Shown: positions 20,142 to 49,852 of the stretch, piece by piece | Layout: the number at the start of each line of letters is the position of its first letter | How positions within the stretch are numbered: position 1 is the first letter of the stretch | Origin: Hydrogenimonas sp. | GTDB taxonomy: Bacteria; Campylobacterota; Campylobacteria; Campylobacterales; Hydrogenimonadaceae | Assembly: GCA_015490295.1 (NCBI GenBank) | Contig: WFYC01000066.1 | Span: 62,001 to 126,000, forward strand | DNA: 64,000 nt | Direction: 5' to 3' | Made by a program: the position numbers and the translations under genes | Notes under the pieces: generated by a model | Database searches by the model: none | What the model saw: only the letters and a program-made list of their open reading frames with translations | Told to the model about the DNA's origin: nothing

Positions 20142-20186
20142 TGTTTTCCTTGAATTGGTTAGTTTTTATGTATGTTTCTATTATTG

Positions 20187-20290
20187 TAACGCGAACTCCG
20201 GGCAAAGCCCGCAATTCGGCAGGGCCTGTGCGGCCCTACAACCCACTAAAGCTTCGAAATCAAAGATTCCGAGACGACGTTTCGATTTTA
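20187..20290. repeat. Multi-hairpin intergenic repeat, copy C (degenerate 3' end)
   Basis: Matches the elements at 48.9-49.1 kb: GGCAAAGCCCGCAATT, GGCAGGGCCTGTGCGGCCCT, then GCTTCGAAATC. The first stem is GGGC/GCCC with an AAA loop where the other copies have AGGC/GCCT, and the outer pairs are GAA/TTC where others have AAA/TTT, so pairing is kept. The last hairpin (TTTTACGC arm) is eroded. It fills the gap between gatB and the ThiE-like gene. Confidence 0.8.
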
Positions 20291-20298
20291 TACAGCCT

Positions 20299-20859
20299 CT
20301 ACCGCTCGACAAAATAGCGTATAGATGCAAAACCGTCCGTGCCCGCTCTCTCTACGGCCTCTATCTGCTCGTCCGAGACGATACCGCCCAGTGCGAAGAT
20401 ATTGAGGGATATTTTACCTCTTATTTCTTTTAACTTCTCTAAACCTTTCGGCGGACCCTTGCCCGGCGTTTCGAAGATGGGGCCGTATGTGACTCCGTAT
20501 GCACCCTCTCCTTCGGCTCTTTTTATCTCCTCAAAAGAGTGTGTGCTTACAATGACTTTAAGTCCAGCATCGCACGATCTGCCTATCTGTTCAAACATGC
20601 CGGAAGGCAGATGGATACCGTCCGCCCCAAGCTCGACGGCTGCATCGATATCGCCATGAAGGAAAAAGAGGGTTTTCGGGAAGATAGGTTTTAAACCCAT
20701 AAATGCTTCGGCAAGCACTTTGTACTCTGTGGTTTTCTTGTCTCTCAGGCAGATCAGATCGACTTTCAAATTTGAAAGAGTATGCTCAACAGTGCTCTTT
20801 AAAGTGGAAGGATCCGAGCCGTAATATGCGGGATCAGTTATCGCGTACCTGAGAATCAC
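20299..20859 (-). CDS. Thiamine-phosphate synthase-like protein (ThiE/TenI family)
   Basis: TIM-barrel protein of the ThiE/TenI family. Visible family segments are RYAITDP at the start, VDLICLRDKK, GADGIHLPSGM, VIVSTHS, GVTYGPIFETPGKGPPKGLE and FALGGIVSDE. The usual ThiE GPIFxTxTK loop is altered, and at 187 residues it is a little short, so it could be a TenI-type homologue rather than the main thiamine-phosphate synthase. The ORF track begins at 20883; the GTG at 20859 with AGGA nine bases upstream gives a start matching ThiE/TenI proteins. It overlaps the upstream small membrane protein by 26 bases. Confidence 0.82.
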   Translation of the reverse strand: MILRYAITDPAYYGSDPSTLKSTVEHTLSNLKVDLICLRDKKTTEYKVLAEAFMGLKPIFPKTLFFLHGDIDAAVELGADGIHLPSGMFEQIGRSCDAGLKVIVSTHSFEEIKRAEGEGAYGVTYGPIFETPGKGPPKGLEKLKEIRGKISLNIFALGGIVSDEQIEAVERAGTDGFASIRYFVER

Positions 20860-31898: not shown

Positions 31899-31932
31899 TG
31901 CAAACCCCCGAAAATGAATATCTATCTAATAT

Positions 31933-32026
31933 TACTCTAACTCCAGGCAAAGCCGGGAATTAGGCAGGGCCTGAAGCTACGAAATCAAAAGATTTCTAAA
32001 TGATTTTACATCTTTTGCGTAAAACC
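31933..32026. repeat. Multi-hairpin intergenic repeat, copy D (internal deletion)
   Basis: Begins TAACTCCAGGCAAAGCC, continues GGCAGGGCCTGAAGC and ends TTTTGCGTAAAAC. About 20 bases (the GTGCGGCCCTACAACCCCCT portion of other copies) are missing, which removes the second hairpin. The outermost pairs of the first stem are TAA/TTA here versus AAA/TTT and GAA/TTC in other copies. It sits between hemC and the UbiD-family gene. Confidence 0.8.
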
Positions 32027-32037
32027 GGTAACTATAT

Positions 32038-48856: not shown

Positions 48857-48892
48857 ATCGGCCCAAGTTTTTATCTGCATTATATCACTGAT

Positions 48893-49012
48893 GCTACGCA
48901 AATTCCAGGCAAAGCCCGCAATTTGGCAGGGCCTGGCCGGCCCTACAACCCCCTGAAGCTTCGAAATCTCAGATTTCGAGATGATTTTACGCTTTTTGCG
49001 TAAAACATTCAT
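48893..49012. repeat. Multi-hairpin intergenic repeat, copy A
   Basis: First of two direct copies with an exact 120-base period. It holds four potential hairpins in a row: CCAGGC/GCCCG-type with AAA loop, AGGGCC/GGCCCT, TCGAAATCT/AGATTTCGA, and TTTTACGC/GCGTAAAA with a TTTTT loop. TACGCAAA at the left end and TTTGCGTA at the right end form a terminal inverted repeat. It lies upstream of rsmH. Confidence 0.9.
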
Positions 49013-49128
49013 GTTACGCAAATTCCAGGCAAAGCCTGTAATTTGGCAGGGCCTGTGCGGCCCTACAACCCCCTGAAGCTTCGAAATCTCAGATTTCGAG
49101 ATGATTTTACGCTTTTTGCGTAAAATCA
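49013..49128. repeat. Multi-hairpin intergenic repeat, copy B
   Basis: Second tandem copy, nearly identical to copy A. The first stem is stronger here (arms AAATTCCAGGC and GCCTGTAATTT, loop AAA, one mismatch), and the last stem has ten pairs (GATTTTACGC/GCGTAAAATC). The terminal inverted repeat is TTACGCAAA ... TTTGCGTAA. It starts right after the stop codon of the DUF72 gene. Confidence 0.9.
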
Positions 49129-49129
49129 G

Positions 49130-49852
49130 TCATATCATCTCGATAAGCTTTCTGGCATTTTTTACGGCGTAGCCTCCGAAGTCGTTGTTGAAGTATACGA
49201 ACATCGACTTCAGGCTATCCATAGCCGAACCGATCCTCTCGGCCCACTCGGCCAGCTCCTCTTCGCTGTAGCTTCCTCCGTATCTGCCGGTAGGGCCATG
49301 CAGACGGATATAGCCGAAGTCGGCCGTAAGCTCCATCTGCATTTCGCGCCTGCCGAAATCGTTTATGCAGAGTGCCACGTTGTAGGATTTCAGAAGGTTG
49401 TATATGTCGTCGCAGAGCCAGCTGTCGTGCCTGAACTCCATCGCAAATCTGTAGCCCGGAGGTAGAATTTTCAAAAAATCCTCCAACAATCCGCGATCCA
49501 TATGCAGCGACGGAGGAAGCTGAAACAAAACAGCGCCCAGCTTCGGTTTGAGCGGTTTTATCAGGTGCAGGTAGCGGTAGAGCTCTCCTTCGCAATCGCG
49601 CAGTTTGCGGTAGTGGGTAATGGCACGGTACGCTTTGAGCGAAAAGAGGAAATCTTCAGGCGACTTGTCGAACCAGTGTTCTGTCGTCTTCAGTCTCGGA
49701 AGATGGTAGAAGGTGCTATTCAGCTCGACCGTCGCGAACTCTCTGCAGTAAAATTCGAAAAAACGGCTTTTTGGAAGATCCTGCGGGTACAAAACAGCGC
49801 GCCAGTGCTCATAGTAAAAGCCTGAAGTCCCTACCCATACACCCTCTCTCAT
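49130..49852 (-). CDS. DUF72 family protein
   Basis: TIM-barrel-like conserved protein of 240 residues, recognised by VGTSGFYYEHWRAVLYP, FATVELNSTFYHLP, LGAVLFQLPPSL, AMEFRHDSWL and FVYFNNDFGGYAVKNA. No reaction is established for this widespread family. The ATG overlaps the bioA stop by four bases, so it is co-translated with bioA. The stop codon abuts the tandem hairpin repeats, whose nearest stem may act as an mRNA end. Confidence 0.92.
   Translation of the reverse strand: MREGVWVGTSGFYYEHWRAVLYPQDLPKSRFFEFYCREFATVELNSTFYHLPRLKTTEHWFDKSPEDFLFSLKAYRAITHYRKLRDCEGELYRYLHLIKPLKPKLGAVLFQLPPSLHMDRGLLEDFLKILPPGYRFAMEFRHDSWLCDDIYNLLKSYNVALCINDFGRREMQMELTADFGYIRLHGPTGRYGGSYSEEELAEWAERIGSAMDSLKSMFVYFNNDFGGYAVKNARKLIEMI

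Follow-up and report, generated by a model that had tools for sequence, protein, structure and literature searches.

The stretch of DNA that we analyzed (the window; 64,000 nucleotides from Hydrogenimonas sp.) contains four related copies of a short multi-hairpin element at three intergenic sites, each flanked by co-directional genes on the minus strand. All four copies match a covariance model on the plus strand. Two of them form a head-to-tail pair with a period of 120, located between rsmH and a DUF72 gene. An initial annotation of the window had proposed four related copies lying between genes, and both points proved correct. The features are listed in Table 1.

Table 1 Features of the element in the window and of a related element. 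E values are from the covariance model, whose training set contained the window copy at 49008.
Feature	Position	Strand	Description
Element copy	20181-20301	+	E 3.5e-20; degenerate, right end lost; between gatB and a thiE-like gene
Left flank of copy 31926	31919-31925		TATCTAT; 6/7 identical to the right flank
Element copy	31926-32028	+	E 1.8e-12; internal deletion across hairpin 2 and linker; between a UbiD-family gene and hemC
Right flank of copy 31926	32029-32035		TAACTAT
Left candidate target duplication of the pair	48880-48887		TTATATCA; 7/8 identical to the right side at 8 bp; no match at exactly 7 bp
Element copy, unit 1 of head-to-tail pair	48888-49007	+	E 5.7e-27; CTGATGCTACGC at the left end nearly intact; changes in the inner right end (GCGTAAAACATT)
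Element copy, unit 2 of head-to-tail pair	49008-49129	+	E 3.2e-32; inner left end altered (TTCATGTTACGC); GCGTAAAATCAG unchanged at the right end
Hairpin 1 of unit 2	49019-49045	+	CAAATTCCAGGC-AAA-GCCTGTAATTTG
Hairpin 2 of unit 2	49048-49064	+	AGGGCC-TGTGC-GGCCCT
Conserved unpaired linker of unit 2	49065-49079	+	ACAACCCCCTGAAGC
Hairpin 3 of unit 2	49080-49100	+	TTCGAAATC-TCA-GATTTCGAG
Hairpin 4 of unit 2	49102-49128	+	3' arm is the right terminal repeat
Right candidate target duplication of the pair	49130-49137		TCATATCA; overlaps the DUF72 gene stop codon
269-bp non-coding element	L102:1002-1270 (G007)		Family ends and 7-bp target duplications

An intact unit is predicted to fold into four hairpins (z of -5.4 for the plus strand and -6.6 for the minus strand), and none of 200 shuffled sequences was equally stable. 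The outer pairs of the first stem are AAA/TTT in two copies, GAA/TTC in the copy at 20187 and TAA/TTA in the copy at 31933, as the initial annotation had claimed. Its further claim, that the inner part pairs as AGGC/GCCT or GGGC/GCCC, holds in two of the four copies and fails in those at 48893 (AGGC/GCCC, with an A.C mismatch) and 31933 (AGGC/GCCG). The inverted repeat that it described at the ends is present, but TTACGCAAA is exact in one of the four copies and TTTGCGTAA in three, and this repeat is not outermost: the element ends (CTGATG.../...ATCAG) lie six bases further out, the true ends being CTGATGTTACGC...GCGTAAAATCAG. Most full elements are 116-135 bp long, and from this length alone we judge that they have no coding capacity. 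A longer variant, whose first stem contains an additional hairpin-like insert, was seen at L203:1352-1512 (161 bp; genome G016) and near position 197 of L124 (genome G007).

The source genome (G000; 1.77 Mb, 85 contigs, 82% complete) contains 47 places that match a window copy at E < 1e-25, in line with the many genome-wide copies that had been anticipated. Fourteen of these places constitute seven head-to-tail pairs (on contigs C17, C31, C38, C65, C66, C67, and C73). A DNA match to the element was present in 16 of the 100 genomes searched, including the source genome, and a pattern scan of named genomes gave a Campylobacterales MAG (JALWMA) and Hydrogenimonas sp. S139_75 as the nearest carriers. 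A covariance-model search, as suggested by the initial annotation, detected relatives across the class, many of the carriers being vent and sulfur bacteria akin to Campylobacter: model R1 matched 68 of 397 genomes and 15 of 68 genera (E <= 0.001), many of the matches listed being weak (E 1e-4 to 1e-7), chiefly in family f10. The scan scores at most 8 matches per genome and so indicates presence, not copy number, and draft genomes break at repeats. No match to the element was found in plasmids and phages (searched with a single query copy, L282), nor was the exact linker found in viral contigs, where the end pattern occurred in 11 stretches, none with paired ends, which we took as chance.

According to a crude ORF caller, 42 of 50 elements overlap no open reading frame by more than 40 bp, whereas 80-95% of random positions would overlap one. 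At L258:2959-3056 (contig C6 of genome G043), an element with an exact ATACTAA duplication lies at the end of an open reading frame, presumably hemB, and supplies its last codons and stop.

In order to analyze target duplications, we picked both ends of each element from the sequence only and then compared the flanks. This was done for 98 elements, 69 of 167 unique anchors having been excluded for lack of recognisable ends or of sufficient flank; the loose anchor used for this analysis and for the site comparison also admitted false or partial sites. An exact 7-bp duplication was found for 29 of the 98 elements versus 0.57 with shuffled partners, and one with at most one mismatch for 51 versus 3.01. 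Exact duplications at 4-6 and 8-10 bp numbered 0 or 1 each, and 8 bp with at most one mismatch gave 6 elements versus 0.27, such that no other length from 4 to 10 came near 7 bp. The consensus of the duplication is TTANTAA. In the remaining 47 elements the flanks show two or more mismatches, suggesting that many copies are old or that their ends were misplaced. Both the terminal inverted repeats and the fixed-length target duplication of a MITE are present in the family; the window's own copies are weak examples of the duplication (Table 1).

Two 242-bp dimers (in L035 and L075) carry exact 7-bp duplications outside the pair, indicating that a pair was inserted, or retained, as a whole. At several shared sites (L025/L086, L043/L084, and L006/L092), G000 has one unit versus two in the carrier genome G001. 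Site comparisons yielded orthologous gaps lacking the element, but none of them was a clean empty site with one copy of the target. On contig 138 of JALWMA (L077:1-540), at least four units lie beside the same thiE-like gene that adjoins one degenerate unit in the window (20181-20301).

Other non-coding elements have the same or similar ends. In G007, a one-contig genome, 123-bp elements and the 269-bp element of Table 1 both have the ends CTGATGTTACGC and 7-bp repeats. Eight G007 copies of the 269-bp element are among the flank pairs with at most one mismatch (7 of the 8 exact), and this element has matches, some of them weak, in 9 of 18 genomes of the genus. Genome G043, from another family, contains homologues of 116-119 bp that have CTGACCTTACGCA as their ends and carry 7-bp duplications, as well as a 258-bp element and shorter ones with the ends of these homologues. 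The simplest reading would be that one enzyme type serves several non-coding passengers.

We consider it very likely (probability about 0.85) that these repeats form a MITE family, i.e. non-autonomous DNA transposons of the cut-and-paste kind. The comparison originally drawn with a MITE or REPIN thus survives in its first half, on the inverted ends, 7-bp duplications, copy number, and intergenic position, and not in its second half (REPIN/RAYT). A DDE-type transposase acting in trans would bind the ends, excise the element, and insert it with a 7-bp stagger. Head-to-tail pairs would move as a single unit because their inner ends are damaged. Less surely, the hairpins may be kept at the DNA level, through single-stranded or cruciform forms or because one arm is used to correct its partner; hairpin 2 and the linker, which make up the conserved core, may be a binding site required for movement or for host tolerance.

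Alternatively, the copies could be old, immobile repeats from a common ancestor, with covariation produced by template switching between hairpin arms, a possibility that we regard as rather unlikely. Mean identity is 0.88 within G000 and also 0.88 between G000 and G001, suggesting that these copies mostly predate the split and giving no indication of recent movement there. The element is also located at orthologous sites in G001 (in loci fetched for holding the motif), and a transposase partner was not found. Against this stand the 29 of 98 elements in which an exact duplication can still be seen, and the ten full-length copies of the 269-bp element in G007, which are 91-100% identical to the query copy (itself one of the ten) and point to later movement with the same ends in that genome.

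The compensatory changes reported initially extend far beyond four copies. We based the main count on A4 (36 pairs over 107 distinct rows), an alignment that was fitted to the model and leans towards its structure, because hairpin 2 is misaligned in some rows of the MAFFT alignment A1, as is hairpin 3 in G043; the RNAalifold consensus on A1 recovers hairpin 1 only. In A4, 92.6% of cells pair versus 75.8% after shuffling, both sides change in 33 of 36 pairs versus 20.2, and the signal is lost when partners are slid by 1-3 columns. The unfitted alignment A3 gives both-side changes in 12 of 36 pairs versus 7.1, and its measure of further pair types was not above shuffles. Variants of the first stem, with both sides changed, include CAAATTCCGGGC/GCCCGTAATTTG, CAAAGCTTGAGC/GCCCAAGCTTTG, and CACTATAATGAGC/GCTCATTATAGTG. 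The step from these changes to selection on base pairing is less secure, since template switching (palindrome correction) could produce covariation without selection.

A G.U pair on one strand corresponds to A.C on the other, and selection on an RNA from one strand should favour one of them. We counted 73 G.U versus 83 A.C over 35 pairs (pair 28-43 set aside), and 76 versus 129 over all 36 pairs. With G.U and A.C about equally frequent, nothing points to selection on one transcribed strand, and the symmetry would be explained either by folded DNA, by arm-to-arm correction, or by RNAs of both strands. Such a count is a cheap means of telling RNA-level from DNA-level selection on covarying repeats. 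It argues against a structured RNA element, selected as RNA for a role in mRNA decay, processing or termination, which we consider improbable. Strong covariation and stable folds speak for such an RNA, the co-directional genes at the window sites make read-through transcription likely, and ERIC and NEMIS transcripts play such roles in the account given in part of PMC2229807. However, a one-stranded RNA should favour G.U, and the orientation of the element to genes is not fixed (9 same and 15 opposite in 24 tandem gaps). Likewise, Rfam yielded no match at gathering level in the window and no credible match in five element loci (best E 0.93, far below the gathering score).

The search for a mobilising enzyme covered two DDE transposase families (PF01609 and PF13612) and one Y1 family. 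PF01609 and PF13612 each matched in 2 of 18 genomes of the genus; no paired element ends were found at the loci checked (5 of 10 for PF01609 and 6 of 6 for PF13612), and these genes were rejected as the parent IS. The source genome has one Y1_Tnp gene, encoding 261 aa with a C-terminal HTH_23 domain and bounded by an inverted repeat of its own, GGGGTCAGGTGATGC... (L032, positions 2473 and 3336; contig C22); the element ends, at up to two mismatches, have no match in this locus. In several members of the genus GGGGTCAG lies near Y1 genes. Y1 was detected in 8 of the 18 genomes, and not in the carriers G001 (99% complete), G016 (100%), and G012 (79%). A transposase or RAYT gene with ends matching the element, which the initial annotation had suggested looking for, did not emerge: no Y1/RAYT gene flanked by the element repeat was found.

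Another alternative is that a RAYT/TIRYT-type Y1 (HUH) transposase moves the element, as a REPIN-like unit, via single-stranded hairpins. The hairpins, the tandem pairs, the intergenic position, the Y1 gene, and a GTAG located 5' of hairpin 2 on the minus strand in 3 of 4 window copies (31933 lacking the site by deletion) would all suit it. It is very improbable and was rejected, given the exact 7-bp duplications, the unrelated ends of the Y1 gene, the carriers in which Y1 was undetected, and the tetranucleotide of G007 copies, which is mostly GCAG. To our knowledge, target duplications are not expected from Y1 transposases.

An autonomous partner of the proposed MITE was also sought through its ends. 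None of 125 end pairs 300-6000 bp apart had matching 7-bp flanks (in 947,563 bases, overlapping loci being counted more than once). Among the end-pattern matches listed, no parent IS was found in the genus or in G043, where the only long candidate (C6:67-3056) proved to be two separate elements. A survey of 16 genomes from other genera, which relied solely on how far apart the listed places lie, gave none either. An autonomous partner is not required for MITE status, and partners can be lost or missing from drafts.

The core comprises hairpin 2 and a linker, CAACCCCCTAAAGCT. The linker CCCCCTAAAG is present in all 28 rows compared, 25 of them from other genera, and the arms of hairpin 2 are conserved in 26-28 of 28 rows, except for one outermost position (15 of 28), whereas twelve left-end positions range from 17 to 28 of 28. 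The model that picked these rows had been trained on this family and so favours conserved cores, and the search itself accounts for part of the conservation. Should the pattern hold, the interior would be more constrained than the ends, which is not explained by a passive MITE. A core conserved across families with ends that vary is the reverse of what a passive MITE shows and offers a testable case for an interior function. A broader scheme, which we put forward only tentatively and think unlikely as a whole, is that these are class-wide, chromosomally inherited multi-hairpin transposons relying on a resident cut-and-paste transposase that is not itself mobile, a DDE counterpart of the REPIN-RAYT system in which the core would be a putative binding site for the enzyme or a host partner.

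In open-access literature, we found no description of a MITE for Campylobacterota, Epsilonproteobacteria, Sulfurimonas or Hydrogenimonas. Sulfurovum is a genus of the same class as the source genome. GTAG- and CGTC-tagged palindromic repeats of 20-40 bp are reported from Sulfurovum NBC37-1 in PMC3733652, and the section concerned describes for them neither terminal repeats nor target duplications like those of our element. Hairpin 2 with its GTAG might be among those repeats.

In the portion of PMC2229807 that treats them, the RUP, Correia/NEMIS, and ERIC MITEs resemble our element in size (about 100-130 bp), in their stable folds and mostly intergenic position, and in having terminal inverted repeats and a target duplication. 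They differ in having TA-type termini and other ends, in contrast to the 7-bp TTANTAA, the 3-4 separate hairpins with a conserved linker, the presence in 15 of 68 sampled genera of one class, and the partner IS that was not found. The CIR repeats of Caulobacter and Brucella are similar in length (about 110 bp), in their separate arms and linker, in cross-species conservation, and in intergenic position, but a table in the same source gives them no terminal inverted repeat and an unknown duplication, whereas the element has both (PMC2229807). REPINs with their RAYTs, as outlined in part of PMC3116915, also show hairpins, tandem clusters, and persistence without an autonomous copy; the element differs by its 7-bp target duplications and the unmatched Y1 gene. 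The TIRYT-associated repeats covered in sections of PMC3733652 and PMC6006769 likewise have terminal inverted repeats, Y1 genes of TIRYT type occur in the genus, and the Y1 gene of the source genome, bounded by GGGGTCAGGTGATGC, resembles the published TIRYT units. Their ends are mostly GGGG[AT][CG]A[CG], whereas the Y1 genes here have GGGGTCAG nearby and the elements CTGATGTTACGC.

As a MITE family, the element is new and ordinary in kind, its unusual features being the class-wide spread, the 7-bp rule, the conserved multi-hairpin core, and the enzyme not found. The class, for which we found no MITE in the open-access literature, thereby gains a family whose 7-bp target rule is clear. Taken together, the ends, the duplication, and the core offer a way of locating the transposase.

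Some further stretches have similar ends. At L181:1395-1512 (genome G010), a third 118-bp stretch shows no blastn similarity to the window element. A 38-bp stretch at L066:137-174 (genome G004) consists of little beyond two facing ends (CCGATGTTACGC...GCGTAACGTCAG), and G043 contains end pairs of 46-64 bp that resemble it.
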